From NCBI RefSeq assembly GCF_004343705.1, contig NZ_SKFH01000007.1, forward strand, positions 62,001 through 126,000: 64,000 nucleotides of DNA. Reading direction: 5' to 3'. The DNA is from Flaviaesturariibacter aridisoli (lineage in GTDB: Bacteria; Bacteroidota; Bacteroidia; Chitinophagales; Chitinophagaceae). Both the position numbers and the translations under genes were made by a program. Shown piece by piece: positions 5,968 through 60,356 of the stretch. The notes under the pieces are model-generated. The model did not search any database. It had not been told where the DNA came from and saw only the letters and a list, made by a program, of their open reading frames with translations. The stretch's first letter is position 1, and each line of letters opens with the position of its first letter.

Positions 5968-6366
5968 TTACCTGTTTTCCCCGGTTTGAATCTGGCCGGG
6001 TGCCAGCAGCACCGTCAGCAGCAGGATCATCGTCAGCACCGGCAACGCATAGAGTGCGGCCAGCTTCTCGGGGCATTCGCCATAGGCGCAGGCGCCGATC
6101 AGCAGCAGGTTGCGAAAGGCCCAGGCCACGTTGAAGGCCTGGAAGAAAAGATTCAGGCGGCGGGTCCATACGGGCCGCAGGAAAACGAGTCCCAGGAACA
6201 GGGCGGAGAAGATCACGTGCATCAGTCCCGGCTTGCCGTAGTTGGTGCTGCCCGGGTCCATCCCGTACACCAGGATGTCGCGCGAGGCAATGTGCACCCA
6301 GGGCTGAAAGCAACAAATCACCAGGGCCACGGCGGCGGCGGCTCCCACATACTTCAGGTAACGCAT
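5968..6366 (-). CDS. Small four-helix membrane protein, unknown function
   Basis: A 132-residue hydrophobic protein starting MRYLKYVGA. About four membrane segments can be seen: residues 5-21, 45-60, 70-90 and 103-122. An upstream in-frame extension exists but is rich in R, C and T, crosses a word repeat (PQTPN-like in one frame) and looks non-coding. The ATG at 6366 is preceded four bases away by a TACCTTCG box, which supports this start and a leaderless mRNA. No family was recognised. The lone context clue is a possible terminator on its 3' side, so it appears to be a single-gene unit. Confidence 0.7.
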   Translation of the reverse strand: MRYLKYVGAAAAVALVICCFQPWVHIASRDILVYGMDPGSTNYGKPGLMHVIFSALFLGLVFLRPVWTRRLNLFFQAFNVAWAFRNLLLIGACAYGECPEKLAALYALPVLTMILLLTVLLAPGQIQTGENR

Positions 6367-6370
6367 GCCG

Positions 6371-6378
6371 CGAAGGTA
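6371..6378 (-). promoter_or_regulatory. -7 box variant (TACCTTCG) 4 nt before ATG
   Basis: The minus strand reads TACCTTCG, one mismatch from TAnnTTTG, ending four bases before the ATG at 6366. The same 4-base spacing is seen at miaA, the heptosyltransferase, dapD and the Crp gene. Confidence 0.5.
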
Positions 6379-6387
6379 AAAGACAGT

Positions 6388-6843
6388 TTGGAGTTTGCGG
6401 GTTTGGAGTTTGGGGTTGCGCGAAGTGACGCCACCTGCGACCATCAGTCGCCTCTGAACGCCCGTCAAATCGCACCGAGTGACCGTTAGCGTGCGCCGAA
6501 CACCTGTCTGCATCCTACGAAAGATCAAAAGACAGCTCCGGAAAACAATCAGGCACCGGGTGCTGTCGATCAGCATGCAGCTATTGGCGATGAGGACGCC
6601 CCGCACTCCATTAGCCACGTCCTCCTTCCAATCAGCCACCCCTGTTTCCGCTAAGAACGTTCCGGGCCAAAGTCCGCTTTAGACTCTCTTTCTCACGTTC
6701 TCTCGTTCTCCCGTTCTCTCGTTCTCTCGTTCTCTCGTTCTCGCCCGGGAAATGCCTCCCGCCTTTAACCTTAATTAATCTAAGCTCCTGTTAAGCCTCC
6801 TCCACTCCCCTGCCAACGGATCCAAATTTGCACGTCCGCGGGT
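6388..6843. other. Gene-free stretch with word-like repeats
   Basis: No convincing gene lies here. It holds a 'tttggagtttg' word repeat at 6388-6416, a middle part without recognisable structure (6417-6680), the 8-bp tandem repeat at 6697-6744, and an AT-rich segment 6768-6782. A CAAATTTG sequence at 6823-6830, one mismatch from TAnnTTTG, lies 13 bases before the metallopeptidase ATG and may be its -7 box. Confidence 0.6.
6697..6744 (+). repeat. Six tandem copies of an 8-bp unit (gttctctc)
   Basis: Four exact copies of gttctctc and two copies with one or two changes (gttctccc, gttctcgc) follow each other without gaps. The 8-bp unit is not a multiple of three and no ORF uses it. It sits 100 bases before the metallopeptidase gene. 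Confidence 0.9.
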
Positions 6844-45018: not shown

Positions 45019-45258
45019 AAGGGTAGGCATTGAAGGTAGGCAGAATCCGCATGGAAACCCACTTCACCTGCTCATTTGGACCGCGAGGTGCAAAGGTTTG
45101 CCGGCTGATAGGGAACGTATATCTGCATAGCCGCAACTATTAGAAAGCGGTTAGAACGGGACGCCTGAAGCCCGGGACGGGCCGATTGCCCCGTGCGTGA
45201 CCGGCGTCGCGGCTGCATCGCCGCCCGGTCGCTACCTTCACACAAACCCGCGCATCAT

Positions 45259-45618
45259 ATGACAACCTTACCATTAACCACGGAAGACTTCAAGGAAAAG
45301 ATCTTTAACTACGACACGGGGCAGGAATGGGAATTCAAGGGCGATGTGCCCGTGATCATCGACTTCTATGCCGACTGGTGCGGCCCCTGCAAACAGGTGG
45401 CGCCTGTACTGGAAGAACTCGCGAGGCAGTATGCCGACCAGCTCGTCATTTACAAGGTGGACACCGAAAAGGAGCAGGAGTTGTCCGCCGTCTTCGGCAT
45501 CCAGAGCATTCCGACCTTCCTGTTTATTCCCGTTGAAGGCACGCCGATGCTGCAGCCCGGTGCGCTTCCGAAAAAAGTCTTCCAGGAAGTGATCGAAGAA
45601 CAACTCCTGCAGAAGTAA
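45259..45618 (+). CDS. trxA: Thioredoxin
   Basis: A 119-residue thioredoxin. FYADWCGPCKQVAPVLEEL carries the WCGPC redox active site and SIPTFLFIP the cis-proline loop. The N-terminus is slightly extended (TLPLTTEDFKEKIFNY) and it lacks a signal peptide, so it acts in the cytoplasm. Upstream a TACCTTCA sequence (45233-45240) is a possible -7 box. It is next to the sulfur and persulfide genes on the opposite strand, which fits a thiol-redox role, but it is not in their operon. Confidence 0.95.
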   Translation: MTTLPLTTEDFKEKIFNYDTGQEWEFKGDVPVIIDFYADWCGPCKQVAPVLEELARQYADQLVIYKVDTEKEQELSAVFGIQSIPTFLFIPVEGTPMLQPGALPKKVFQEVIEEQLLQK

Positions 45619-45736: not shown

Positions 45737-46258
45737 TCAATGCGGCAGGCGCTCGCGGAAGTAGCCATACACCCAGGTGCCGGCAATGGCGCTCAGCAGC
45801 ACCACAACCACCACGGTAAAGCCCGACGCGATCTGTGCGAAGAGCGGCCCGGGACAAGCGCCCGTCATGGCCCAGCCCAGCCCGAAAAGGAGGCCGCCCC
45901 ACACTTGTCCCTTGTTGAATTTCTTGGGGTGAAACTCGATGGGCTCGCCGTAAATGGTCTTTACGCGAAACCGCTTGATGAGCCACACGGAAGCGATGCC
46001 GACAACCACCGCCGAGCCGATGACGCCGTACATGTGAAAGCTTTGCAGGCGGAACATTTCCTGGATGCGGAACCACGATATAATCTCGGCTTTGACGAAC
46101 ACAATGCCAAACAGGAGCCCTACCAGCAGGTATTTGAAATTATACCACCAGGGGTGCACTTGCTGCGATTCGTTGATGCACATCGTATCAAGGCTGCGCA
46201 CTTCGAAGTCGGTATCGACCGCGTGCGGAACGGGCTTGGGGCTGGAGATTTTTTCCAT
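45737..46258 (-). CDS. YeeE/YedE (DUF6691) half-transporter, sulfur compounds
   Basis: A 173-residue membrane protein with four helices (FKYLLVGLLFGIVFVKAEIIS; MYGVIGSAVVVGIASVWLI; WGGLLFGLGWAMTGACPGP; TVVVVVLLSAIAGTWVYGYF). GWAMTGACPGP is the second-half signature of YeeE/YedE thiosulfate transporters, with a cysteine placed in the pore in the structure known for YeeE. The first half is encoded by the preceding gene, 18 bases away, so the two should form one transporter. Confidence 0.9.
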   Translation of the reverse strand: MEKISSPKPVPHAVDTDFEVRSLDTMCINESQQVHPWWYNFKYLLVGLLFGIVFVKAEIISWFRIQEMFRLQSFHMYGVIGSAVVVGIASVWLIKRFRVKTIYGEPIEFHPKKFNKGQVWGGLLFGLGWAMTGACPGPLFAQIASGFTVVVVVLLSAIAGTWVYGYFRERLPH

Positions 46259-46276: not shown

Positions 46277-46840
46277 TTACAGGGAAAGGATAAAGGGCAG
46301 GATCCAGTTGGCCATGATAAAGCCGCCTGCCATGAACGAGATCGTGGCAATGAGCGAGGGCAGCTGCAGGTTGCTCAGGCCCATGATCGAGTGCCCCGAG
46401 GTGCAGCCACCAGCGTAGCGCGTGCCAAAGCCGACCAGAAAGCCGCCGCCAACGAGCAGGACCAGCCCGCGCAACGTAAAAAGGCTGCTGAAGCTGAAGA
46501 TCTCCGGCGGTAACAGTTTGCTATGGTCGGTAATGCCGTACCCGGCAAGCTCCTTTGTGAGCGCCGGGTGCACGGCAACGGGATCGGGGTTGGCCAGCAG
46601 CCAAACGGCGAGGAAGGCGCCCACGAAAATGCCCCCTACGAAAAAGAAGTTCCAGATCTCTTTTTTCCATTCGTATTGAAAGAACGGGATGCGCGCCGGG
46701 AAGCAGGCCGCGCAGGCGTGGCGCAGGTTGGCCGAGATGCCGAAGTGCTTGTTGCCGATCAGCAGCAGCGTGGGTACGATCAGGCCGATGAGCGGCCCGG
46801 CCACGTACCAGGGCCAGGGATGACGGATCCATTCAGGCAT
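46277..46840 (-). CDS. YeeE/YedE half-transporter, first half
   Basis: A 187-residue membrane protein. [16 protein letters not shown] is the first-half signature (GGCTSGH) of YeeE/YedE proteins. [17 protein letters not shown] adds further cysteines. Helices are at about 10-28, 65-82, 110-130 and 150-180. The family imports thiosulfate or related sulfur compounds. ATG 46840 is used; a GTG two codons upstream is also possible. It is followed by its partner half gene and preceded by the MBL/rhodanese fusion. Confidence 0.9.
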
Positions 46841-46875
46841 AGTCACTGGTTTTACAAAATGAAGGGAAATACAAG

Positions 46876-48231
46876 TTACAACGGAAAATTGCGGATCTCC
46901 TCACCCAGGTCGAACACTTTCGCCCGGCCGTCGACCACGGACGACAGCAGTGAAGCCGCGGCGGCGCTTCGGTAGCCACCGGCGCAATGCACCACGATGG
47001 GCTTTCCGAAAGGTATGTCGTGGGCCCGCTCGCGAAGATCGGCCAGGGGAATGGCGATACTGTGGCCAAAAGGTCGCGCCGCCTTTGTTTCAGACGGGTT
47101 CCGCACGTCCACGACAGTATAAGCGTCCGGCGCGTAGCGGAAAGCATCCAGGTCAAAGGGTTCTTCCCGCTCCGGACCGCCCTCCAGCACAAATGCTTCC
47201 GCGATCTGCGCTTCGTACCCGATAGCGGCCGCGCGGCGAAGCAGGCGTTGCAATTGCGCGTCGTCAGCCGCCGCGAGGTAAAACGGCTCGCCCGGCACAA
47301 TGATGGACCCCAGCCAGGTCTCGAACTTATTGCCTTCCATCAGGTTTACCGAATGCGGCAGGTGGCCCGCCTTGAATACGATTTCTTTCCGTCCGTCGAC
47401 GACCCAGGTGCCCGGTTGCAGCCGCGCCGCATTCGCTGCGCTCACCGGCGTGCCGATGGGAACGTTGCGGATAGCGGCCGCCAGCGCGGGCGCACCTTTA
47501 CGGTTCAATTCCACGTCGAAGGGAAAGTACTTCGGAACAAAAGGCTGGTCGGCCAGCAGCTCTTTGACGAACTCTTCTTCCCCGAGGTCCTGCAGCGACC
47601 AGTTTGTTTGCCGCTCGGCGCCCATGCTGCTCACGGACGCATTACTGAGCGCTTTTCCGCAAAGGGTGCCGGCGCCGTGCGCGGGGTACAGCAGCACGTC
47701 GTCGGGCAGCGGCAGCAACTTGTCGCGCAGCGAGTGATAGAGCTGCCGCGCCAGGTCTTCCCGCGTTGCCTGGAGGGCGCCCGCGCCTTCCCGGAGGTCG
47801 GGGCGGCCGCAGTCGCCGATAAAGAGCGTATCGCCGGTGAACACAGCCTGGGGCTTGCCGTCGCGCTCCAGAACAATGGAGACGCTGTCGGGCGAGTGGC
47901 CGGGCGTATGTAGCGCCCGGAGCCGCACTTTACCGACGTGTAATTCGCTGCCGTCATACAGCGGCTCGTGCGGGTATTGAACCCCGGCAAGTGCGCTCAC
48001 GTACAGGATCGCGCCGGTTTCCTGGTGCAGCTCCAGGTGGCTGCTTACAAAATCCGCATGCGGGTGTGTTTCGATGACGCCTACGATCCACGCGCCTTCT
48101 GCTGCCGCATATTCCAGGTACGGAGTTGCATCCCGCGCCGGGTCGATGAGGACGATCTTTTTTTCACAATCGCTGAGCACCGCGTAGCTGAAATGCGCGA
48201 GGCTTTTGTCTTCCCATTGTTTGATTTGCAT
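46876..48231 (-). CDS. Metallo-beta-lactamase fold protein fused to two rhodanese domains (persulfide dioxygenase-like)
   Basis: A 451-residue protein. The N-terminal MBL domain has ETHPHADFVSSHLEL (HxHxDH-like, THPHADF), HTPGHSPDS and FTGDTLFIGDCGRPDL, as in ETHE1-type persulfide dioxygenases. The first rhodanese domain (about 255-350) has lost its cysteine. The second (about 365-451) keeps it in VVHCAGGYRSAAAASLL. The expected role is oxidation of glutathione or protein persulfides to sulfite, which the neighbouring exporter could remove. It starts 6 bases after the rhodanese gene. Confidence 0.92.
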   Translation of the reverse strand: MQIKQWEDKSLAHFSYAVLSDCEKKIVLIDPARDATPYLEYAAAEGAWIVGVIETHPHADFVSSHLELHQETGAILYVSALAGVQYPHEPLYDGSELHVGKVRLRALHTPGHSPDSVSIVLERDGKPQAVFTGDTLFIGDCGRPDLREGAGALQATREDLARQLYHSLRDKLLPLPDDVLLYPAHGAGTLCGKALSNASVSSMGAERQTNWSLQDLGEEEFVKELLADQPFVPKYFPFDVELNRKGAPALAAAIRNVPIGTPVSAANAARLQPGTWVVDGRKEIVFKAGHLPHSVNLMEGNKFETWLGSIIVPGEPFYLAAADDAQLQRLLRRAAAIGYEAQIAEAFVLEGGPEREEPFDLDAFRYAPDAYTVVDVRNPSETKAARPFGHSIAIPLADLRERAHDIPFGKPIVVHCAGGYRSAAAASLLSSVVDGRAKVFDLGEEIRNFPL

Positions 48232-48237
48232 GTCGTT

Positions 48238-48516
48238 TTATTTGCGTGTGTTGCTCAGGGCGCGTTTCATTTCCTCAAGTCCGCCGCCGTTGTAGACGTC
48301 AGCGAACCCTTGTTGCTTCAACATCGATACCGCCATGCCGCTACGATTGCCGACCCTGCAATAAAATACGACCGGCTTTCCCCAGCTTCGGATATCGGCA
48401 AAACGGACTGCGAGCTGGTCCAGCGGAATGTTTACGGCATTGGGGATGTGTTGTTGCCGGTATTCATCGGGTGTTCGTACGTCCACGATAACGGCATCTT
48501 CAAGATTAAGATTCAT
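48238..48516 (-). CDS. Single-domain rhodanese (sulfurtransferase)
   Basis: A 92-residue protein starting MNLNLEDAVIVDVRTPDEY. The active-site loop is FYCRVGNRSG with the persulfide-carrying Cys. An upstream in-frame ATG at 48597 lies on the regulatory palindrome and its extension (TQVTVTAKGSLEFYRD) is not rhodanese-like, so ATG 48516 is used. It is first of an apparent operon of four genes (rhodanese, MBL/rhodanese, two YeeE halves). Confidence 0.9.
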   Translation of the reverse strand: MNLNLEDAVIVDVRTPDEYRQQHIPNAVNIPLDQLAVRFADIRSWGKPVVFYCRVGNRSGMAVSMLKQQGFADVYNGGGLEEMKRALSNTRK

Positions 48517-48584
48517 AACGTTTGAATTAAAGATTGTTGTTGTGTTGTCCCTGTAAAATTCAAGAGATCCTTTCGCCGTAACCG

Positions 48585-48596
48585 TGACCTGGGTCA
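48585..48596. promoter_or_regulatory. Crp/Fnr-type operator TGACCTGGGTCA upstream of the rhodanese operon
   Basis: A 12-bp near-perfect palindrome (TGACC-N2-GGTCA), also readable as GTGA-N6-TCAC, the Crp-family core. It lies about 70 bases before the rhodanese ATG and just after the TauE gene stop. Confidence 0.7.
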
Positions 48597-48611
48597 CAGG
48601 CAGCAGACTTT

Positions 48612-49409
48612 TTAGGGAAGCAGGATTTCACGGACCAGGATATAAGCGCCCATCAGCAGCACGAACCAGCCAAAGCCCCTTTTGAGCCGCTCGCCCGCGA
48701 TCTTTTTACCGAGGGCACCGCCCAGGAAAATCCCGGCCACCGCAATTGTAGTGATCCGCAGCAGGAAGCCCCAATCGATCGCCACGTGGCCCAGGTCTCC
48801 TGCAAAGCCGATGAGTGCATTCAGGGCGATGATAAGTAACGAAGTGCCGACGGCCATCTTCATGGGAAGCCTGAGAAGCAGAACGAGCGCCGGGATCAGC
48901 AGAAAGCCGCCGCCCGCACCCAGCAGCCCGGTGACCAGGCCGATGCCAACGCCGTATCCGAGCAACTTCCGGACGGTAAAGCAATCGCTGCATTCCGATT
49001 CACCGGCAGCGTTTTTCCGGCCCCGGATCATGCTTACCGAAGCCAGGAGCATCAGCAGGGCGAACAGCAGCATAGTGAGCAGCGAAGACGTAAGCGTGAG
49101 CTTCCCGATCTGCGCCAGCTTTCCGGGAATGGACGGCACGAGGAAGCGCCGGGTAGCGAACACGGTAATCAGCGAGGAGGAACCAAAAAGAGCGACCGCC
49201 TTCAGGTGTACCCATCCTTTCCGGAAGTTGTCGAGGGCGCCGACAAAGCTGGTAGCACCTACCAGGAAAAGTGAATACGAAGTTGCCAACAATGGGTTGA
49301 GGCCAAAGAGGTACACCAGTACCGGTACGGTCAGGATCGACCCGCCACCACCGATCAGCCCGAGCGAAACCCCGATCAGCAGGGATGCGAAATAGCCCAA
49401 TAATGCCAT
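48612..49409 (-). CDS. TauE/SafE family sulfite/anion exporter
   Basis: A 265-residue membrane protein with about eight helices. The repeat signatures GLIGGGGSILTVPVLVY (first half) and GLVTGLLGAGGGFLLIPALVL (second half) define the family. ECSDCF lies in the loop between halves. Within a persulfide-handling module it probably exports sulfite or another sulfur oxyanion. It follows the Crp/Fnr regulator gene, with an operator between them. Confidence 0.93.
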   Translation of the reverse strand: MALLGYFASLLIGVSLGLIGGGGSILTVPVLVYLFGLNPLLATSYSLFLVGATSFVGALDNFRKGWVHLKAVALFGSSSLITVFATRRFLVPSIPGKLAQIGKLTLTSSLLTMLLFALLMLLASVSMIRGRKNAAGESECSDCFTVRKLLGYGVGIGLVTGLLGAGGGFLLIPALVLLLRLPMKMAVGTSLLIIALNALIGFAGDLGHVAIDWGFLLRITTIAVAGIFLGGALGKKIAGERLKRGFGWFVLLMGAYILVREILLP

Positions 49410-49426: not shown

Positions 49427-49469
49427 CGAAGGTGGCGTGCGGACAAGCTGCAAAACGTGACCCCGGTCA
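49427..49469 (-). promoter_or_regulatory. TauE promoter with Crp/Fnr-type operator TGACCCCGGTCA (49458-49469)
   Basis: The operator overlaps the stop codon of the Crp gene. A TTTG (minus strand of 49451-49454) and CACCTTCG (49427-49434) downstream could be -33 and -7 elements. The operator centre would then be near -43, the usual place for an activator of the Crp class II type. Confidence 0.6.
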
Positions 49470-50114
49470 CGGGAGTACGTCTCCAAGATCCACGATCTCG
49501 ACACCCGATTTGAGGAGGCGCACGGCACCCCTGTCGGAAAGCTTTTTCATGAGGCGGGAAACTACCTCGCGGGAAGAGTTGAGATCCTGCGCGATCTCGG
49601 TGAACGACACCGGCACTTCGTTGATCCCGAATTTCTCCTGGTAGCGACGCAGGTAAAAAACGAGGCGCTCGTCCATGTTGTGAAAAGCGACCTGGTCAAT
49701 GGTCTGCAGCAATTCGTCGAAGCGTTCGCGGTAGGATGAAACCGAAAACTGCGCCCAGCTTTTGTACCGGCCCATCCAGGCGTCTACCTGCTGCAGCGGA
49801 ATGGCCAGCACGGTTGCGTTCGTGACCGCCTTTACCATAAGACCGCTTTGCTCCTTGCCCAGCTCGCACACGAGCGAAACGGCGCAGGCTTCTCCGGAGT
49901 CGAGGTAATACATGAAGAATTCGGCCCCATCTTCGTCTTCGCGGTACACTTTCACGAGTCCTTCCAGCACCAGCAGCGTCGTCCGGATATTCTGGCCCGT
50001 GCGCATGAGCACCGCTCCTTCCGGCAGCTCGCGGATATCGCCGGCCCGGATCATTTCGGCAAGCAGTTCCGGTTCCAGGGAGGGGAAATATTGGCCCAAC
50101 TCGTTTTCAGTCAT
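49467..50114 (-). CDS. Crp/Fnr family transcriptional regulator
   Basis: A 215-residue regulator. The cyclic-nucleotide-binding-like beta-roll (about 10-125) has VLMRTGQNIRTTLLVLEGLVKV. It lacks the usual cAMP-binding R-x-A cluster and has two cysteines, C77 and C83, in EACAVSLVC. The winged-helix domain has FTEIAQDLNSSREVVSRLMKKL, with the recognition helix SSREVVSRLMKKL. ATG 50114 is used because the longer frame reads through the promoter. A TACCTTTG box ends 4 bases away. It likely binds the TGACC-N2-GGTCA sites nearby (inference). Confidence 0.94.
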   Translation of the reverse strand: MTENELGQYFPSLEPELLAEMIRAGDIRELPEGAVLMRTGQNIRTTLLVLEGLVKVYREDEDGAEFFMYYLDSGEACAVSLVCELGKEQSGLMVKAVTNATVLAIPLQQVDAWMGRYKSWAQFSVSSYRERFDELLQTIDQVAFHNMDERLVFYLRRYQEKFGINEVPVSFTEIAQDLNSSREVVSRLMKKLSDRGAVRLLKSGVEIVDLGDVLP

Positions 50115-50118
50115 GCGG

Positions 50119-50126
50119 CAAAGGTA
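50119..50126 (-). promoter_or_regulatory. -7 box (TACCTTTG) 4 nt before the Crp/Fnr gene ATG
   Basis: A full TAnnTTTG match on the minus strand, four bases from the ATG at 50114. Confidence 0.7.
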
Positions 50127-50217
50127 GGCAGAGGTATAGTCGGCGTCATGGGAGCAGCCTCGCGAGCCCGGTGTAAATAAATTCAACAAAGTTCCATCCC
50201 GGAGACATGGGAAACGG

Positions 50218-50928
50218 TTACACCTTCACCCCGAAAAGGTAACCGACCAGCGCAGACAGGAGCATTGCGATGGTGCCCCACACAACGATGCGGAGAATGG
50301 CTTTGGGCACACTGCTTCCGCCGGTTTTCGCCGATACCGTACCCAGTATGATCAAGGCTACGATCGTGAACCCATACAGAAAGTACTCCATGTAGGCCAC
50401 GGGTGCAAACAAAGTAACCAGGAGCGGCAACACCCCGCCCGCCGTAAAAGCGGCGCCCGATGCGAAGGCCGCCTGAATCGGGTTTGCCTGGCTGATCTCG
50501 TTGACCCCGAGCTCATCCCGCACGTGCGCGGCTAGCACGTCGTGCTCGGTCAGCTCTTTCGCAACCTGCAGGGCCGTTTCTTTTTTCAATCCCCGTTTCT
50601 GGTAGATTTCGGCCAGGATCCGGAGCTCCGCTTCGGGACTCTCCCGGAGTTCCTGTGCTTCCCGTTCGATGTCCGACTTTTCGATATCGGTTTGCGAACT
50701 CACCGACACATATTCACCAGCCGCCATGGACAGGGCTCCTGCCACCAGGCCGGCGACTGTTGCGAGCAGGATCGGGCTCCTGGAATCACTCGCCGTAGCC
50801 ACGCCGATTGCAAGGCTGGAGATGGAAATGATGCCGTCATTGGCACCCAGGACCGCTGCCCGCAGCCAATTACTCCGGTGTATGTAATGGCTGTCCAGAT
50901 AGTTATCGATCGTCAGTTTTTCACTCAT
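50218..50928 (-). CDS. VIT1/CCC1 family iron/manganese transporter
   Basis: A 236-residue membrane protein. The N-terminal HYIHRSNWLRAAVLGANDGIISISSLAIG is the first helix region of VIT1/CCC1 proteins, with the metal-binding region in GALSMAAGEYVSVSSQTD. A charged cytoplasmic helical segment follows (EREAQELRESPEAELRILAEIY, in part). Three C-terminal helices finish the protein. The family moves Fe2+ or Mn2+ across membranes, probably out of the cytoplasm in bacteria. Confidence 0.93.
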   Translation of the reverse strand: MSEKLTIDNYLDSHYIHRSNWLRAAVLGANDGIISISSLAIGVATASDSRSPILLATVAGLVAGALSMAAGEYVSVSSQTDIEKSDIEREAQELRESPEAELRILAEIYQKRGLKKETALQVAKELTEHDVLAAHVRDELGVNEISQANPIQAAFASGAAFTAGGVLPLLVTLFAPVAYMEYFLYGFTIVALIILGTVSAKTGGSSVPKAILRIVVWGTIAMLLSALVGYLFGVKV

Positions 50929-51632: not shown

Positions 51633-54197
51633 ATGAACTGGCACCTGCTCCGCACAGAAAAAGCATTGGAAGAAACCGGGTCTGCGACCCGCGGGTTGAC
51701 GCGCGCGGAAGCAGCTGCGCGGCTGCTGTCGGGTGGCCCCAACGTGCTGCTGACCGCTAAAAAGCGCAGCGCCTGGAAGCTGTTCCTGAGCCAGTTCTAC
51801 GACTTTATGACGCTGGTGCTGGTAGCTGCGGCCATCATTGCCGGCATCGCCGGCGACCGTGCCGACACGCTGATCATCCTCTCCATTGTCGTGCTCAACG
51901 CCCTGCTGGGCTTCGCGCAGCAATACCGCGCCGAAAAAGCCATGGAAGCCCTCAAGCACCTCGGCGATCCCCTGTGCACCGTGTGGCGCGAAGGGCTGGC
52001 GGAAACCATCCCCGTAGCCAACCTGGTGACCGGCGACGTCGTGCTGCTCGACGCGGGCAACGTAGTGCCTGCCGACCTTCGCCTGCTGGAAGTGCAGTCC
52101 CTGGCGGTAATGGAAGCCGCGCTGACCGGCGAATCGGTGCCGGTGCAGAAAACCGTGCGCGTGCCGGAAGAAGATACCCACAGCCTCGGTGACCGCCACA
52201 ACATGGCCTACCGGGGCACGCAGGTCACCAGCGGCCGCGGCCGCGGTCTCGTGATCGCTACCGGTATGAATACCGAGATCGGCCAGATCGCGCGGCTGCT
52301 GCAGGCCCCCGAAGCCGACACGCCGCTGCAGGTGCGGATGCGCGACTTCGGCAAAAAACTGAGTTACGGCGTGCTGGCCATCTGCGCCATCCTGTTCGTC
52401 GCCGGGCTGCTGCGCGGCGAGAGCGCCGCGGGCATGCTGCTGCTGGCCATTTCGCTGGCCGTGGCGGCCATCCCTGAAGCGTTGCCGGCGCTCATCACCA
52501 TCGCCCTGTCGCGCGGCGCCTCGGTGCTCGCCCGGCATCAGGCGCTTATTCGCAAACTGACGGCCGTAGAAACGCTGGGATCCGTCACCTATATCTGCAC
52601 CGACAAGACCGGGACACTCACGCTTAACCGGATGACCGTAACGGTCACCGAGCCCGCCGGCGCCACGCAACTTGACGGCCTTCCGCTGCTGCACGCCGCC
52701 ATGGCCCTGAATCATTCCGTACAATTCGGCCAGGAAGAGCTTAGCGGCGATCCCACCGAGACGGCCCTGGTTCGGTATGTGCTGGAAAACGCCGGTAGCG
52801 ACGCCGTGCGGCAACTGGCGGAAAGCCACCCGGTGCTGCAGGAGCGGCCGTTCGACTCCGAGCGCAAGCTGATGACGACGGTACACCGCAGCGGCGAACA
52901 CTACCTGGTGCTGGTAAAGGGCGCCGTCGAATCGGTGGCGGAGCGCCTGGCCGCTGAAGGCGCCGGTGGCTGGGCGGAGCGTGCTGCCGCCTGGGGGGCC
53001 GACGGAAAGCGCGTGCTGGCTTATGCCTACAAATTCATCGACTGCCTGCCCGCCAACCCCGAAGATTGGGAAAGCGGACTTCAGCCCGCCGGCCTCGTAG
53101 CGCTCCACGACCCGCCGCGCCCCGGCATCGACCGCTCCATCCGCGCCTGCCGCGAAGCCGGCATCCGCCCCGTGATGATCACCGGCGACCACCCGGAGAC
53201 CGCCGCCGCCATCGCCCGGCAGATCGGACTGCTCGACGGGCTAAGCCGCGTGGTGTCGGGCCGCGAAATGGAGCACTGGGATGCCGCCCGCTTTGAAGCG
53301 GAGGCGCCGCTCGTAGCCGTCTACGCCCGCGTTTCGCCGGCCCAGAAGCTACAGATCGTGGAAGCGCTCCAGCGGCGCAACCAATACGTGGCCATGACCG
53401 GCGATGGCGTCAATGATGCCCCTTCGCTGCGAAAGGCGAATATCGGCATCGCCATGGGCATCACCGGCACCGACGTGAGCAAGGAAGCGGCGCACATGAT
53501 CCTGCTCGACGACAACTTCAGCACCATCGTGGGGGCGATCCGCGAAGGACGACGCGTGTACGACAACATCCGCCGCTTCGTCAAATACATCATGACCTGC
53601 AACACCGCCGAGATCTGGACCATCTTCCTCGCGCCGCTGCTGGGTCTGCCCATACCTTTGCTTCCCGTACACCTGCTCTGGATCAACCTCATCACCGACG
53701 GGCTTCCCGGGCTCGCCCTGTCGGCGGAGAGCGCGGAGCGCAACGTGATGACCCGGCCGCCACGGCCGCCCGGCGAAAGCCTTTTTGCACACGGCAGCGG
53801 CTTGCACATCCTGTGGGTGGGCCTCCTCATGGCCGCCCTCGCGCTCGGTACGCAGGCCATCGCCTTGCAGCACGCGCTCCCCCACTGGCAAACGCTGGTG
53901 TTCACGACCCTTTCCTTTGCCCAGCTCGGGCACGTGTGGGCCATCCGCAGCGAGGAAGAATTCATCTTTCGCAAGGGCTTTTTCTCCAACCACCCCCTAA
54001 CCGCCACCCTGGCGCTCACCGTAGGGTTGCAGCTGTGCGCCGTGTACCTGCCGGTGGCTAACAAATTGCTGCACACCCAACCGCTGACGCTGATCGAGCT
54101 GTCGGCGAGCGTGGCCGTGGCCGCCCTGCTTTTTCACGCCGTGGAGCTCGAAAAATGGATGAGACGCCTGCGCAGAACCGCCCGGCACAAACGGTAA
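51633..54197 (+). CDS. P-type (P2, Ca2+-ATPase-like) cation-transporting ATPase
   Basis: An 854-residue pump. The N-terminal cation-ATPase domain (about 1-60) is followed by the actuator domain with LTGESVPVQK, the M4 motif AIPEALPAL, the phosphorylation site CTDKTGTLTLNRM (D324), the nucleotide domain (PFDSERKLMTTV) and the hinge MTGDGVNDAPSL. M5/M6 include INLITDGLPGLALSAE. Order and length match P2-type pumps of the PMR1/Ca2+ group. The PEALP motif (common form PEGLP) leaves the ion uncertain: Ca2+ or Mn2+ are most likely. It opens the stress block and is 70 bases before the first universal stress gene. Confidence 0.93.
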   Translation: MNWHLLRTEKALEETGSATRGLTRAEAAARLLSGGPNVLLTAKKRSAWKLFLSQFYDFMTLVLVAAAIIAGIAGDRADTLIILSIVVLNALLGFAQQYRAEKAMEALKHLGDPLCTVWREGLAETIPVANLVTGDVVLLDAGNVVPADLRLLEVQSLAVMEAALTGESVPVQKTVRVPEEDTHSLGDRHNMAYRGTQVTSGRGRGLVIATGMNTEIGQIARLLQAPEADTPLQVRMRDFGKKLSYGVLAICAILFVAGLLRGESAAGMLLLAISLAVAAIPEALPALITIALSRGASVLARHQALIRKLTAVETLGSVTYICTDKTGTLTLNRMTVTVTEPAGATQLDGLPLLHAAMALNHSVQFGQEELSGDPTETALVRYVLENAGSDAVRQLAESHPVLQERPFDSERKLMTTVHRSGEHYLVLVKGAVESVAERLAAEGAGGWAERAAAWGADGKRVLAYAYKFIDCLPANPEDWESGLQPAGLVALHDPPRPGIDRSIRACREAGIRPVMITGDHPETAAAIARQIGLLDGLSRVVSGREMEHWDAARFEAEAPLVAVYARVSPAQKLQIVEALQRRNQYVAMTGDGVNDAPSLRKANIGIAMGITGTDVSKEAAHMILLDDNFSTIVGAIREGRRVYDNIRRFVKYIMTCNTAEIWTIFLAPLLGLPIPLLPVHLLWINLITDGLPGLALSAESAERNVMTRPPRPPGESLFAHGSGLHILWVGLLMAALALGTQAIALQHALPHWQTLVFTTLSFAQLGHVWAIRSEEEFIFRKGFFSNHPLTATLALTVGLQLCAVYLPVANKLLHTQPLTLIELSASVAVAALLFHAVELEKWMRRLRRTARHKR

Positions 54198-54252
54198 CCA
54201 CAATCACTGTTTTCCTTTGCCCGCCGTCAGTATTGGACCCCGGCGGAGCGGA

Positions 54253-54260
54253 TAGATTTG
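54253..54260 (+). promoter_or_regulatory. -7 box (TAGATTTG) of the universal stress gene block
   Basis: A full TAnnTTTG match, 7 bases before the ATG at 54268. ATTG at 54232-54235 could be the -33 element (17-base spacer). Confidence 0.65.
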
Positions 54261-54267
54261 GACCATT

Positions 54268-55092
54268 ATGGAACAGATCCTGATCCTGCTCAATGCCAAC
54301 CGGCCCTCCGCATCCTGCATCCAGTTTGCCTGCACCGTTGCCGGCATGAACCACGCACGGCTCTGCGGCATATTCGTGGAAACCATGCCGAGCGAAGGGT
54401 ATTATTCGGCTAACGACATCTTCCTCGCGGGGGCGAAGCCGGCACAGGGGTCGGGAGTGGTGACCATGGATCCCGAACAGGCCATCCGGGTATTCACCGA
54501 CACCTGCCAGCGAGAAGGTGTGCAATCGGAATCCGTACTGATCGATGCCGGCCCGCTTCCTTACGCGGTGCGCGAGAGCTACTTCGCCGACCTGCTCATA
54601 TTGAGTCCGGACACGGGCTTCACCGGCGACGAGGAAGAAACACCCTCGTCGTTCACGCGCGACCTGCTGCGCACGGCGGCCTGCCCCGTGCTGCTTGCGC
54701 CGCTGCAATTCGATGCGTTCAATGAAACCATTTGCTGCTACGACGGAAGTCCGTCCGCCGTCTATGCGCTGAAGACCTGCAGCTACCTGTTTCCGGAGCT
54801 GGCGAAAGAGCGGCTCACGATCCTTGAAGTGACGCGCGCTACCGACGCTGTCTACGACGAAAAGCACGGCCGCCTCCTGAAGTGGGCGCGCTGCCATTAC
54901 GATGAAGTGCTGTTCCAGCCGCTTTCGGGCGATACGGAAGAAGAACTCTTTGATTACCTGTTCCGGAAGCGCGGCAAGCTGGTGGTGCTTGGCGCCTATG
55001 GGCGCTCCCTCCTGTCGATGCTGTTCCAGGAAAGCACCGCCGACCGTATCAGCCGTGCGATCGACCTGCCCCTGTTCATCACGCACCTCTAA
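54268..55092 (+). CDS. Universal stress protein, tandem UspA-like domains (1 of 3)
   Basis: A 274-residue protein with two UspA-like halves. The first begins QILILLNANRPSASCIQFACTVA, and the second starts at about residue 150 (ICCYDGSPSAVYALKTCSY). The second ends with VLGAYGRSLLSMLFQESTADRI, which keeps G-x2-G-x9 but has E in place of the last Gly of the ATP-binding motif. The first half has lost the motif. It is the first gene after the box at 54253, and the second stress gene starts 5 bases after its stop. Confidence 0.88.
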   Translation: MEQILILLNANRPSASCIQFACTVAGMNHARLCGIFVETMPSEGYYSANDIFLAGAKPAQGSGVVTMDPEQAIRVFTDTCQREGVQSESVLIDAGPLPYAVRESYFADLLILSPDTGFTGDEEETPSSFTRDLLRTAACPVLLAPLQFDAFNETICCYDGSPSAVYALKTCSYLFPELAKERLTILEVTRATDAVYDEKHGRLLKWARCHYDEVLFQPLSGDTEEELFDYLFRKRGKLVVLGAYGRSLLSMLFQESTADRISRAIDLPLFITHL

Positions 55093-55097
55093 CCGAA

Positions 55098-55937
55098 ATG
55101 AAAAAATTCATCGCCGCTTTCGACAGCCTGCAATTCCCCGAAAGCACCCTGGACTACAGCATCAACCTGGCCCGGGACGCGGGGGCGCACCTTGTGGGGG
55201 TGTTTCTCGAAGACCCCAACATACATAGCTACGGCGTGACGGAGATGACCGATTATTCGGGTAAAAGTTTCGATCGCCACGTGCAGGAACTGAATCGCAT
55301 CGACCACCAGAAGCGACAGGAGGGCGTCGATCGCTTCCGCGCTGCCTGCGGCGCCGCCGGCGTCACCTGCTCGGTGCACCGCGACCGGCACGCCCCGCTG
55401 CGCGAGCTGCTGCACGAATCCATTTATGCCGACCTGCTGCTGACCGCCAACGACGTTACACCCGGCACGGCCGCCACCGCGGCCCCGACGCCCTTCGTGC
55501 GCCACCTGCTGCAGGAAGCCCAGTGCCCCGTCATGCCACTGCCCCCGCACTTCGCACCTATCGACCGGGTGACGCTTTTGTACGATGGCGCACCCGCCTC
55601 CGTGCAGGCCCTGCGTGCCTTCAGCTACCTGCTGCCCCACTTGAAGGAACTCGACACCGAAGTGGTCACCGTGAAAGGCTCCGACGACGACGGGCACCTC
55701 CCCGACGGTCGGCTGATCAAGGAGTTTGTAAAAAGACATTTCCCGCAGGCACGCTACACCGTGCTGAAAGGCCCGGCCGACGAGGAACTCGTAGCACACG
55801 GCAAGCGACAGCCCGGCCCCGGCATCATCGTGCTCGGCGCCTACCGTCGCGATGCCTTGTCGCGGTTGTTCCGTCCCAGTACGGCCGATGTGCTGATGCA
55901 GCACCTGCAGGCGCCACTGTTCATTGCCCACTATTAG
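55098..55937 (+). CDS. Universal stress protein, tandem UspA-like domains (2 of 3)
   Basis: A 279-residue paralogue of its neighbours. The N-terminal half starts KKFIAAFDSLQFPESTLDYSI, and the second half at about residue 155 (VTLLYDGAPASVQALRAFSY). The final segment VLGAYRRDALSRLFRPSTADVL has the second Gly of the ATP motif replaced by Arg. The N-terminal segment HLVGVFLEDPNIHSY is typical of this group. It is separated from PEP synthase by 20 bases and probably in the same transcript. Confidence 0.88.
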   Translation: MKKFIAAFDSLQFPESTLDYSINLARDAGAHLVGVFLEDPNIHSYGVTEMTDYSGKSFDRHVQELNRIDHQKRQEGVDRFRAACGAAGVTCSVHRDRHAPLRELLHESIYADLLLTANDVTPGTAATAAPTPFVRHLLQEAQCPVMPLPPHFAPIDRVTLLYDGAPASVQALRAFSYLLPHLKELDTEVVTVKGSDDDGHLPDGRLIKEFVKRHFPQARYTVLKGPADEELVAHGKRQPGPGIIVLGAYRRDALSRLFRPSTADVLMQHLQAPLFIAHY

Positions 55938-55957
55938 CCACTTCCAAATGAAAAACC

Positions 55958-58393
55958 ATGGCCACATTCATCAGGTATTATTCAGAATTGGGATTGGCGG
56001 ATGCGCCTTCCGTCGGCAGCAAGAATGCTTTCCTGGGCGAGCTGTTTCAAACGGTCACTACGCCCGGCATGCAGGTGCCCGACGGCTTCGCCATTACGGG
56101 CGACGCCTTCCTCGAGTTCCTGCGCGTCAATAACCTCGAGCCGAAACTGCTGCAGATCCTCGACAACCTCGACCGCCTGTCGTTCGGCAACCTCGCCCGC
56201 ACCGGCGAAATTGCCCGCACGCTGCTGTTGCAGGCAAAGCTGCCGGAGACGCTCGCCCACGAAGCAATACTAGCCTACCGCGCTCTTGCCGACGGCGACG
56301 GGCCCGTGGTAGTGCGGAGCAGCGCCCTTTCCGACGACGATCCGGCGGCCAACTTCGCGGGGCTACACGACTCCTTCCGCAACGTCCGCGGCGAAGCCGC
56401 CCTGCTCCAGTCCCTGAAGGCCTGCTTCGCTTCTGTGTTTAACAACCGCGCGATCAAGTACCGCCAGGAAAAAGGATTCCTGCAGGAAAAAATGTCGCTG
56501 GCTATTGGCGTGCAGCGGATGGTCCGGGCCGACCTCGGCGGCTCCGGCGTAGCCGTCACCCTTGATCCGGAAACAGGCTTCCGAAATGTCGTGCACATCA
56601 GTGCCATCTGGGGCCTTGGCGAGAATATGACCCACGGCTCCGCCACTCCCGACGAATACCGGGTGTTCAAACCCAACCTGGCGCGGGGTTACGACGCGCT
56701 GCTCCAGAAAGCACTGGGCGCCAAGGAACACAAGCTTTTCTTCGACAGCGCAGGCACAGCCCGCAACACCCCAACGCCCGAAGCGGACCGCGCGCGCTAC
56801 GTGCTTTCCGACGAAAGGGCCGAAGAACTCGCCCGCTGCTGCGTGGACATCGAAGCGCGCGTGGGCAGGCCGATGGACATCGAGTGGGCCATCGACGGCA
56901 GCGACGACATTTTGTACCTGCTCCAGGCACGGCCTGAAACAGTGCAGTCGGCGCAGAACCCGCACGTCTTTACCGACTACCACCTGGAGCGGAAAGGCCT
57001 GTCGCTGATCTCGGGGCAAGCCATCGGCATGAAAGTGGTGTCGGGCAAAGCCCGCATCCTGCAGTCGCAGCGCGAACCGGAGCTGCAACCCGGCGAGATC
57101 ATCGTGACCGACCTCGTACATCCCGACTGGGAACCGGTGCTCGAACTGGCGGCGGCCATCGTGACCAACAAGGGCGGACGCACAAGTCACGCCTCCATCA
57201 TGGCCCGCGAGCTCGGCATTCCTGCCGTGGTGGGCTGCGGCGACGCCACTGAACGCATTACCGACGGCGAGTGGATCACGGTGTCTTGCTGCGAAGGCAG
57301 CACCGGCAATGTATACCGCGGCGTCATTCCGTATGTTTTGCTGGAACACGATTTTTCGGGTACGCGCCTCACCGCGAAAACGCGCGTCAAGCTCATCGCC
57401 GGCGATCCCGACAGCGCCTTCCGGCTTTCGTTTTACCCCAACGACGGTGTGGGACTCATGCGCCTCGAATTCCTCATCGGGCATTTTATCCGCATCCACC
57501 CGATGGCCCTGGTGCGCTACGAGGAGCTCTCCGATACCGAACTGCGCCGGCTCATCGATGAACGCACAAAGGGTTATACCGACAAGAAGGAATACTTCGT
57601 GGACCAGCTCGCACAGGGAATTGCAGTGATGGCCGCAGCATTCTACCCGAAGGAAGTGATTGTACGCACCAGTGACCTCAAAACGAACGAGTATGCCGGA
57701 CTCATCGGCGGATCGGCCTTTGAACCGCAGGAAGAAAACCCGATGCTGGGCTTTCGCGGCGCCGCGCGGTACTATCACCCGCTGTACGAAGAAGGCTTTG
57801 CCCTTGAATGCGCCGCCATCCGGCGCGTGCGCACGCGGATGGGTTTGACCAACGTCAAGGTGATGGTGCCGTTTTGCCGGACCGTGGAGGAAGCCGCGAA
57901 AGTGGTGTCGGTGCTGGCAGGCAATGGCCTCGACCGCTGCGTGGACGAAAGTCTTCAGCTGTATATGATGGCCGAGATCCCCGCCAACGTGCTGCTGGCC
58001 GGCGAGTTTGCGCGCCACTTCGATGGCTTCTCCATCGGCTCGAATGACCTCACCCAACTCACCCTGGGCATCGACCGCGGCTCCGCCCTGGTGGCCGGCC
58101 AGTTCAGCGAACAGAATGAAGCTACCCGCCTGCTGATCAGCCAGATGATCGCCGCCGGCCACAAGGCCGGCAAGACCGTAGGGCTGTGCGGGCAGGCGCC
58201 CAGCGACGACGCCGATTTCGTACGCTTCCTGGTCGAGCAGGGCATCGACAGCATCTCCTTTAACCCCGACAGCCTGCTCAACGGCATCGGCTACGTTGCG
58301 CACGCCGAAGCGATGCGTGGGGAACACGATGGGCCCGGCGACCCTTCCCGAATGCCCGGCGGCAGGCGCAAGAAAGAGCAACCCGAACCCTAG
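55958..58393 (+). CDS. ppsA: Phosphoenolpyruvate synthase
   Basis: An 811-residue enzyme that turns pyruvate and ATP into PEP, AMP and phosphate. The N-terminal ATP-binding domain has VVVRSSALSDDDPAANFAG and SVFNNRAIKYRQEKG. The mobile phosphohistidine domain carries GGRTSHASIMARELGIPAVVG with H411. The C-terminal PEP-binding barrel has IIVRTSDLKTNEY, GFRGAARY, MVPFCRTV and FSIGSNDLTQLTLG, with the cysteine VGLCGQAPSD near the active site. The length is that of true PpsA. It lies between universal stress proteins and a two-component system, suggesting that carbon flux is reset under energy stress (inference). Confidence 0.95.
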   Translation: MATFIRYYSELGLADAPSVGSKNAFLGELFQTVTTPGMQVPDGFAITGDAFLEFLRVNNLEPKLLQILDNLDRLSFGNLARTGEIARTLLLQAKLPETLAHEAILAYRALADGDGPVVVRSSALSDDDPAANFAGLHDSFRNVRGEAALLQSLKACFASVFNNRAIKYRQEKGFLQEKMSLAIGVQRMVRADLGGSGVAVTLDPETGFRNVVHISAIWGLGENMTHGSATPDEYRVFKPNLARGYDALLQKALGAKEHKLFFDSAGTARNTPTPEADRARYVLSDERAEELARCCVDIEARVGRPMDIEWAIDGSDDILYLLQARPETVQSAQNPHVFTDYHLERKGLSLISGQAIGMKVVSGKARILQSQREPELQPGEIIVTDLVHPDWEPVLELAAAIVTNKGGRTSHASIMARELGIPAVVGCGDATERITDGEWITVSCCEGSTGNVYRGVIPYVLLEHDFSGTRLTAKTRVKLIAGDPDSAFRLSFYPNDGVGLMRLEFLIGHFIRIHPMALVRYEELSDTELRRLIDERTKGYTDKKEYFVDQLAQGIAVMAAAFYPKEVIVRTSDLKTNEYAGLIGGSAFEPQEENPMLGFRGAARYYHPLYEEGFALECAAIRRVRTRMGLTNVKVMVPFCRTVEEAAKVVSVLAGNGLDRCVDESLQLYMMAEIPANVLLAGEFARHFDGFSIGSNDLTQLTLGIDRGSALVAGQFSEQNEATRLLISQMIAAGHKAGKTVGLCGQAPSDDADFVRFLVEQGIDSISFNPDSLLNGIGYVAHAEAMRGEHDGPGDPSRMPGGRRKKEQPEP

Positions 58394-59300: not shown

Positions 59301-60356
59301 ATGAAAAAGATCCTGCTCATCGACGACAACCCGCACATCCGCGAAAACATCGCGGAGCTGCTGGAGCTCTCGCGTTACCGCGTGGTGACGGCCGGTGACG
59401 GACGGTCGGGCATCGAAGCGGCGATCGCGGAGAAGCCTGATCTTATCCTGTGCGACATACTCATGCCGGGCATCGACGGCTACGGCGTGCTGCACCTGTT
59501 GCAACGTCGTCCCGAGCTGCAGCAGATCCCCTTTGTCTTTCTCAGTGCCAAGTCGGACCAGGCCGAGATCCGGCAGGGCATGTCGCTGGGCGCCGACGAC
59601 TATATCACGAAGCCCTTTGATGCTACCGACCTGCTGAAGACCGTGGAAAGCCGCCTGCGCAAATCGGAATTGCTGCGCCACAGCCGGACCGCGGGCCTCG
59701 ACGGCGTTGACGAGCTCATCTCGGTATCGGCCGGCGACGAGGTGCTCCAGGGCTTTGTGCGCGACCGCCACCTGGACCGCTACAAGAAAAAGCAGCGCAT
59801 CTTCACCGAGGGCAACCATCCCGTGCGGCTCTATTACGTGCAAAAAGGAAAAGTGAAGGTGTACAAGACCAATGAAGAAGGTAAAGAGCTGATCCTGAAG
59901 ATCGCCAACGAAGGCGACTTCTTCGGGTACATTTCACTGTTGGAGAACACCGTATACCGCGAAAATGCCACGGCGCTGGAAGACTGCGAGATCGCCGCCA
60001 TCCCGCGGAGCGAGTTCGAGGAATTGATGAATGCCAACCCGCAGGTAACGCGCCGCTTCATCAGCCTGCTTTCGAAAGACGTGCGCGAGAAGGAAGAACA
60101 GCTATTGAAGATCGCATATAACTCCCTGCGCCGCAAAGTGGCCGATGCACTCCTGAGCGCACAGGAGCGCTTCCGCGTGGGAGGCGAACGGCAGCCGATC
60201 CACCTGACCCGTGAAAACCTCGCCGCCATTGCCGGCACCGCCACCGAATCGCTGATCCGGACGCTTACGGACTTCAAGACCGAAGGCCTCATCGACATTC
60301 ACGACGGAAGCATCAGCATACTCGACTACGACAAGCTCGAGCGGCTGGTCAACTGA
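59301..60356 (+). CDS. Response regulator receiver fused to Crp/Fnr-type DNA-binding regulator
   Basis: A 351-residue fusion. The receiver (1-125) has LLIDDN (D8, D9), the phosphoacceptor D52 in LILCDILMPG and the Lys in ITKPFDATDLL. A Crp-like beta-roll follows (about 150-265: QRIFTEGNHPVRLYYVQKGKVKVYKT, in part). The winged helix at the end (LTRENLAAIAGTATESLIRTLTDF) is the recognition element. It lacks clear cAMP-binding residues. It is expected to bind a Crp-type palindrome when phosphorylated by the kinase before it. Confidence 0.94.
   Translation: MKKILLIDDNPHIRENIAELLELSRYRVVTAGDGRSGIEAAIAEKPDLILCDILMPGIDGYGVLHLLQRRPELQQIPFVFLSAKSDQAEIRQGMSLGADDYITKPFDATDLLKTVESRLRKSELLRHSRTAGLDGVDELISVSAGDEVLQGFVRDRHLDRYKKKQRIFTEGNHPVRLYYVQKGKVKVYKTNEEGKELILKIANEGDFFGYISLLENTVYRENATALEDCEIAAIPRSEFEELMNANPQVTRRFISLLSKDVREKEEQLLKIAYNSLRRKVADALLSAQERFRVGGERQPIHLTRENLAAIAGTATESLIRTLTDFKTEGLIDIHDGSISILDYDKLERLVN

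Follow-up and report, generated by a model that had tools for sequence, protein, structure and literature searches.

The persulfide sensors named in the excerpts of two publications (PMC9774590, PMC7315123) are CstR, SqrR/BigR and FisR, none of which is a Crp/Fnr protein. A Crp-like protein of Acinetobacter baumannii, A1S_1182, shares 50% identity with E. coli Crp and 54% with Vfr and was found to be highly persulfidated in sulfide-treated cells, the effect being unknown according to the excerpt (PMC7315123). For CprK, a thiol sensitivity through Cys11 and Cys200 has been described in vitro, the physiological relevance of which is unclear in the excerpted account (PMC2610375). Many Crp/Fnr subgroups are uncharacterised, as stated in the excerpt of a paper on RedB (PMC9603854). 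A search of the open-access PMC literature yielded no description of a Crp/Fnr protein as a dedicated sensor of persulfide, and no persulfide sensor for Chitinophagaceae, Flavobacterium and relatives was found in the open-access literature.

Here, we present an analysis of a Crp/Fnr-family regulator and its sulfur gene neighborhood in Flaviaesturariibacter aridisoli, a member of the Chitinophagaceae. The window is the whole stretch of 64,000 nucleotides that was analyzed, and all positions refer to it unless another contig is named. Compared with a preliminary description of this DNA, the gene-regulatory unit is better founded, and the specific two-cysteine chemistry proposed at that time is not general.

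The regulator and its ligand cassette

The regulator gene (49467..50114) is located on the minus strand and encodes a protein of 215 amino acids, composed of a cNMP_binding-like domain and a Crp helix-turn-helix. The minus strand is open from 50114 to 49467, and the plus strand contains a stop codon in the same interval. Cys77 (codon 49884..49886, minus strand) and Cys83 (codon 49866..49868, minus strand) are the sole cysteines, and the Crp/Fnr reading frame with two lone cysteines that had been reported earlier is thus real. An alternative TTG start at 50189 would lengthen the protein and add two cysteines; the ATG at 50114 agrees with the orthologues. A Pfam scan gave cNMP_binding (PF00027, 4.3e-10) and HTH_Crp_2 (PF13545, 3.5e-09), both above the cut-off, and by these domains and the fold match to CRP and 3DV8 the protein is a full-length member of the Crp/Fnr superfamily.

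In the AF2 model of the regulator (mean pLDDT 93.1), the two cysteines flank the short helix 78-82 of the phosphate-binding cassette, Cys77 lying just before and Cys83 just after it. The model is weakest in the C83-bearing block 81-90 (mean pLDDT 77). When the protein is aligned with E. coli CRP, C77 corresponds to I70 and C83 to F76, both within the phosphate-binding cassette, which confirms the earlier placement of both cysteines in the effector domain. The residues E72 and R82 of CRP are cAMP-anchoring contacts, and their places are taken by V79 and Q89 in the window regulator, so that the usual cAMP residues are indeed missing as first described. Among the non-redundant homologues, glutamate occurs at position 79 in none of the 143 counted and arginine at position 89 in 6 of the 97 with two cysteines. 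The NCBIfam CRP equivalog scored 44.9 bits against the regulator, with a cut-off of 266. A cAMP-responsive CRP is ruled out by the replaced anchors and by this score below the cut-off. The oxygen sensors of the FNR type carry a [4Fe-4S] cluster bound by an N-terminal cysteine cluster and one further cysteine, and such a cluster is ruled out as well, since Cys77 and Cys83 are too few for it.

Sulfur gene context and conservation of the cysteines

Sulfur genes had been named as the neighbors of the regulator, and the Pfam annotation agrees. The predicted target 1 encodes a TauE/SafE exporter (48612..49409, minus strand; PF01925, 2.1e-36). It is followed by the predicted target 2, a single-domain rhodanese (48238..48516, minus strand) with its likely ATG at 48516, and by a persulfide-dioxygenase-like (PDO-type) fusion of metallo-beta-lactamase (MBL) and rhodanese (46876..48231, minus strand), which is probably part of the same operon as the rhodanese. 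Two further genes on the minus strand were assigned by Pfam to a YeeE/YedE-type sulfur transporter half (Sulf_transp, 46277..46846) and to the DUF6691/YeeE second half (45737..46258). The thioredoxin gene (45259..45618, plus strand), also recognized by Pfam, is a possible target 3.

Several other genes were recorded in the window. A VIT-family gene (VIT1 by Pfam, 50218-50928) lies upstream of the regulator, and in the related locus L089/L140 it is found nearby as well. Cation P-type ATPase-like, universal-stress-like and phosphoenolpyruvate-synthase-like genes stand in a row at 51633-58393, as judged by eye from the ORF list. A second Crp-type helix-turn-helix without a cysteine at position 77 is located at approximately 60135-60347 (G000:C7:122135-122347), and its ORF (L183, L289) starts with a response-regulator receiver domain by eye.

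For the comparison between species, 200 homologous loci with flanks were collected from 80 named contigs and 120 stretches of other genomes. The search was based on similarity to a query with two cysteines and therefore favored two-cysteine rows; the named contigs were also chosen by a helix pattern admitting E or V at position 183, and for the phylum matches 80 stretches were taken from a longer list and chosen across E-values. Seven loci are duplicates (L140, L141, L151, L152, L175, L176, L250) and were dropped for the deduplicated counts, and a filter for 80% identity and coverage left a non-redundant set of 144 rows. Loci with a TauE, rhodanese, PDO-type or YeeE gene within 4 kb were termed sulfur-linked; 10 representatives of the 153 neighbor clusters were scanned with Pfam.

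C77 is present in 199 of the 200 loci (192/193 after removal of duplicates) and C83 in 146, all of which have C77 too. The preliminary description had named conservation of both cysteines beside TauE and rhodanese genes as its test. This holds for C77, found in all 151 sulfur-linked loci, and in part for C83, found in 129 of them. Among the 144 rows with at most 80% identity, 143 have C77, which makes it as conserved as R131 and Y69, and only the fully invariant columns R182, R187 and G52 stand above it. C77 is therefore a conserved cysteine of the sensory domain that is kept in the sulfur-linked homologues, as in persulfide-sensing regulators. As a control, 35 of 39 above-cut-off Crp/Fnr paralogues from outside the family were taken from 15 genomes, the own genome and 14 relatives. 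None of the 35 has a cysteine at position 77 or 83 (all are gapped in column 83), and a single one, L279, carries a cysteine at another place of the segment. Only one of the 35 is sulfur-linked, compared to 129 of the 146 two-cysteine loci (Fisher p ~6e-23, kinship ignored).

Sulfur linkage is thus not complete in the two-cysteine class, 17 of the 146 loci having no such gene within 4 kb, and among the 53 loci that have C77 and lack C83, 22 are sulfur-linked and 31 are not. The deduplicated figures are 123/139 for two cysteines, 22/53 for absence of C83 and 0/1 for neither cysteine; the non-redundant ones are 81/97, 18/46 and 0/1. Since C77 is kept in 31 C83-less and 17 two-cysteine loci that are unlinked, its role may extend beyond sulfur sensing. 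The single locus that has lost both cysteines (replaced by F and Y) belongs to a genome of the same genus (L156, G001:C11:9409-22035; CRP ORF 5998-6714, minus strand). It has no sulfur neighbors, yet carries a perfect GTGAC-N4-GTCAC at the start of its own regulator gene, and is a natural cysteine-free control.

The 31 unlinked C83-less loci also speak for a general thiol-redox sensor, in which C77, with C83 where present, would be oxidized by oxygen, peroxide or disulfide stress and the sulfur genes would be one output among others. An OsmC-like gene stands beside the one-cysteine regulators L220, L240 and L246 (Pfam OsmC in L220), a thioredoxin was found by profile near L220 and L246, and a Dps-like ORF was seen by eye near L240 and L246. 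DUF302-like ORFs, again by eye, are present at L246 and L240, a redox rather than a sulfide-oxidation neighborhood. A precedent within the superfamily is CprK, for which the excerpt describes inactivation in vitro through a disulfide between Cys11 and Cys200 (PMC2610375). We nevertheless judge a general redox sensor to be unlikely, because the two-cysteine class is sulfur-linked in 129 of 146 loci and because the exact operator described below is confined to sulfur genes in the window genome.

The preliminary description had proposed a C77-C83 disulfide or tetrasulfide switch, and as a common mechanism this does not hold: 22 of the 151 sulfur-linked members are without C83. In a regulator tree built without the cysteine columns, the main two-cysteine clade comprises 100 rows, 95 of them with both cysteines (SH-aLRT 97), and the clade of the window regulator 57 rows, 56 of them with both (SH-aLRT 100). 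Most C83-less rows fall into a separate clade of 30 rows (SH-aLRT 94) and into smaller clades, and the presence of C83 changes at least five times on the tree. An independent-pairs test of C83 against sulfur linkage had three usable pairs on supported branches and was not significant. In L231, L262 and L241 the second cysteine is found at position 84 instead of 83; L231 is the only one of the 22 sulfur-linked C83-less loci with this arrangement.

Because the 22 of 53 C83-less loci keep the gene context, an intramolecular C77-C83 bond is not the shared mechanism. A universal two-cysteine switch is ruled out by these members and such a switch would be a feature of the two-cysteine clade at most. 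C77 is the only cysteine of the aligned region in 14 of the 18 non-redundant sulfur-linked rows without C83, and must therefore be able to act alone there. C77 is likely the primary sensor. The role of C83 goes no further than that of a clade-specific partner, most plausibly as an optional resolving cysteine.

Homologues were also found on plasmids, and 6 of 54 matching plasmid records were examined. The C-x5-C arrangement occurs at the same place in plasmid-borne homologues of Paracoccus marcusii (L311), Thioclava (L312) and Azospirillum. In the first two, the regulator gene is followed by genes for DUF2892, an MBL-fold hydrolase and a SulP transporter, with an additional TIGR01244 sulfur transferase in Thioclava. 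In the Azospirillum plasmid neighborhood DUF2892 is present and sulfur genes were not found nearby, though both cysteines are kept. A quick scan of the gene starts of the Alphaproteobacterial homologues gave no operators. A plasmid protein of Pusillibacter (Firmicutes) also has both cysteines, and no sulfide genes were found in its plasmid neighborhood. The plasmid protein of Spirosoma linguale (L314) has its second cysteine at position 84 and adjoins TauE-type, MBL and YeeE genes, and a Pontibacter plasmid carries the full set of Crp/Fnr, TauE, MBL, rhodanese, YeeE and DUF6691 genes according to the NCBI annotation.

Operators, promoter geometry and DNA specificity

Two perfect copies of the palindrome GTGAC-N4-GTCAC are present on the minus strand of the window, operator 1 (GTGACCGGGGTCAC, 49457..49470) before the TauE gene and operator 2 (GTGACCCAGGTCAC, 48584..48597) before the rhodanese operon. 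The listed GTG start of the rhodanese at 48597 falls inside operator 2. A weaker operator 3 with one mismatch (GTGACCGGCGTCGC, 45197..45210, plus strand) precedes the thioredoxin gene. A binding site had been predicted at 49458; the palindrome exists and covers 49457-49470. An operator for autoregulation within two mismatches was not found in 50115-50217.

In the 4.37-Mb genome, exact GTGAC-N4-GTCAC occurs in these two copies, both at this sulfur locus. The reversed pattern, used as a control, also has two genomic places, which makes the number of operators ordinary and their position striking. When palindromes of equal base composition were ranked over 193 deduplicated loci, GTGAC-N4-GTCAC came first (40 loci, the next unrelated one reaching 17), and 36 of 50 of its sites are located at target-gene starts, compared to 14% of the bases in such stretches. 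Operators in which a half reads GTAAC or GTGAT are frequent as well among the homologous loci.

In Bacteroidota, the consensus of the -7 element is TANNTTTG. The TauE promoter has a candidate -7 box CACCTTCG (49427..49434, minus strand) with two mismatches to the consensus, beginning at +29 from the operator center, and the identical eight bases stand at the same place in L089 and L139. A box with two mismatches, GAATTTTA (48554..48561, minus strand), is found at +29 ahead of the rhodanese operon, and a -7-like box TACCTTCA (45233..45240, plus strand) lies downstream of operator 3 before the thioredoxin gene. At all three window sites the octamer at +29 has two mismatches, and no better octamer is present between +22 and +39. 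In the relatives, 185 sites near target starts were tested, out of 271 with GTGAC, GTAAC, GTGAT or GTAAT halves. A -7 box (up to one mismatch allowed) starts at precisely +29 from the operator center at 127 of the 185 and at +30 at a further 17, the other offsets outside the operator having a mean of 1.5 and a maximum of 6. In non-redundant loci (80% identity filter), the box is at +29 in 86 of 126 sites. Class II CRP sites are centered at -41.5. As the -7 box at fixed +29 corresponds to this class II spacing, the regulator is predicted to be a class II activator by its promoter geometry. The preliminary description had not chosen between activator and repressor.

The specificity of the recognition helix points to the same sites. 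With E at residue 183, which is the case for the window regulator, 222 of 266 halves have G as their third base; with V, this base is G in 3 of 50 halves and A in 38 of 50, kinship being ignored in these counts. The equivalent residue of CRP, E181, reads this base pair. Given this covariation of residue 183 and operator, it is very probable that the predicted GTGAC-N4-GTCAC sites are bound by the regulator itself. By sequence, putative operators with -7 boxes precede TauE, PDO, rhodanese and YeeE genes and fit the recognition helix, as would be expected of a persulfide-sensing regulator.

A scan of the genome with the combined operator and box pattern (at most two mismatches) gave 8 places, compared to 2 for the control, and those other than the two window sites cannot be separated from chance. 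A one-mismatch operator with box and TTGA on one side (L266, G000:C1:145297-145340) sits between rhodanese-like ORFs and a metal P-type-ATPase-like ORF, both recognized by eye. This site may belong to a remote target, or it may serve an FNR-like paralogue.

Proposed mechanism and comparison with known systems

We consider it rather probable that the protein is a dedicated local Crp/Fnr activator of sulfide and persulfide detoxification, with a cassette rebuilt around C77 as a sulfane-sulfur-reactive residue. The cysteines, their context, the operator, the promoter geometry and the covariation in specificity have the support of sequence evidence, and the regulator very probably turns on the neighboring genes that clear toxic sulfur. 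The gene content of the locus points to reactive sulfur as the signal, and activation would most likely occur by direct reaction with toxic sulfur compounds; the sensing chemistry that we infer for C77, and with it the direction of the switch, is as follows. Sulfane sulfur would persulfidate C77, and in the two-cysteine clade C83 could then join C77 through a sulfur bridge (di- to tetrasulfide) that spans the cassette helix. The resulting shift of the cassette would bring the DNA-binding domains to their active form, in the way known for cAMP and CRP. The dimer would bind GTGAC-N4-GTCAC centered about 41.5 bases upstream of the transcription start and switch on tauE, the rhodanese-PDO-YeeE operon and probably trx. 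Thioredoxin, itself a possible target, and the persulfide dioxygenase may reset the regulator. By arithmetic, a separation of nearly 10 A is expected between residues i and i+6 of an ideal helix, too far for a plain disulfide without unwinding; applied to this low-confidence region of the model, it would favor a longer C77-C83 sulfur bridge or a conformational switch.

The same cassette might instead bind a sulfur metabolite non-covalently, such as sulfite, thiosulfate or a thiol (for instance GSH or coenzyme A persulfide), with the cysteines being structural. Glutathione is an allosteric ligand of PrfA (PMC12937710, in excerpt) and activates Vfr (PMC7315123, in excerpt). S90, the counterpart of CRP S83, is moreover kept in 93 of 97 two-cysteine rows. 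The CRP anchors E72 and R82 are gone, however, and a structural cysteine is replaceable by A, S or V and need not be near-invariant at 25-50% identity, which makes this kind of sensing improbable. Least probable of all is a heme- or metal-based gas sensor with C77 as axial ligand, modeled on the CO sensor CooA with its ferric-state cysteine ligand near the same cassette position: a near-invariant single cysteine in the ligand cassette and a nearby histidine in some one-cysteine members (position 86, 17/21 CG rows) would suit it, but no effector-domain histidine is conserved across the 144 rows, the top histidine column 171 (122/144) belongs to the helix-turn-helix domain and is occupied by F in the window regulator, every other reaches at most 40/144, and the C83 of the two-cysteine class is left unexplained.

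The sulfane-sulfur-reactive activator can also be placed in a wider frame. Whether the family as a whole represents a covalent sulfane-sulfur receptor on the Crp/Fnr fold, in which the near-universal cysteine N-terminal to the former cAMP cassette helix accepts sulfur, with one- and two-cysteine classes comparable to those of peroxiredoxins, acting as class II activators of persulfide detoxification genes in Bacteroidota and present also in Alphaproteobacteria and perhaps Firmicutes, is in our estimation evenly balanced. The one- and two-cysteine clades and the pairing of residue 183 with the operator are ready natural experiments. A regulator of this kind is to be sought at the sulfur genes of Chitinophagaceae, Flavobacterium and relatives, and the proposal, if true, shows the conversion of a cyclic-nucleotide cassette to cysteine chemistry.

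With E. coli CRP/CAP, the regulator shares the fold (Foldseek 1zrf_A, E 6.5e-16; VIA Z ~22 for CRP chains), the GTGA half-site and a recognition helix of the RExxxR type. Class II spacing is a feature of CRP that the operators of the regulator match. Unlike CRP, it has V79 and Q89 and carries Cys77 and Cys83 in the cassette, and its regulon is predicted to be local instead of global. The best match by sequence among solved structures is 3DV8 (EUBREC_1222 of Eubacterium rectale, 1.6e-28), which is also tied best by VIA (Z 23.1, with 2oz6) at 22% identity to the regulator. Two cysteines of 3DV8 align on C77 and C83, and we know of no function for this protein.

CstR, a member of the CsoR family, and SqrR/BigR are repressors of other families, whereas the window regulator is a predicted Crp-type activator. 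SqrR/BigR (ArsR family) and CstR likewise exert cysteine-based control of sulfide-detoxification genes, among them those for PDO, TauE and YeeE/YedE-type transporters, and FisR is likewise a cysteine-based persulfide-responsive activator, which controls PDO, SQR and TauE in A. baumannii, according to the excerpts of both sources (PMC9774590, PMC7315123). FisR is of the sigma54-dependent enhancer-binding type, unlike the Crp/Fnr regulator described here. The conserved cysteine of A1S_1182 lies opposite the ligand pocket in the excerpted description (PMC7315123), unlike C77 in the cassette, and Cys11 and Cys200 of CprK are different cysteines from C77 and C83. If the proposed reading is true, the regulator is a Crp-type persulfide activator with an operator and a promoter code of its own, whereas the known sensors belong to other families.
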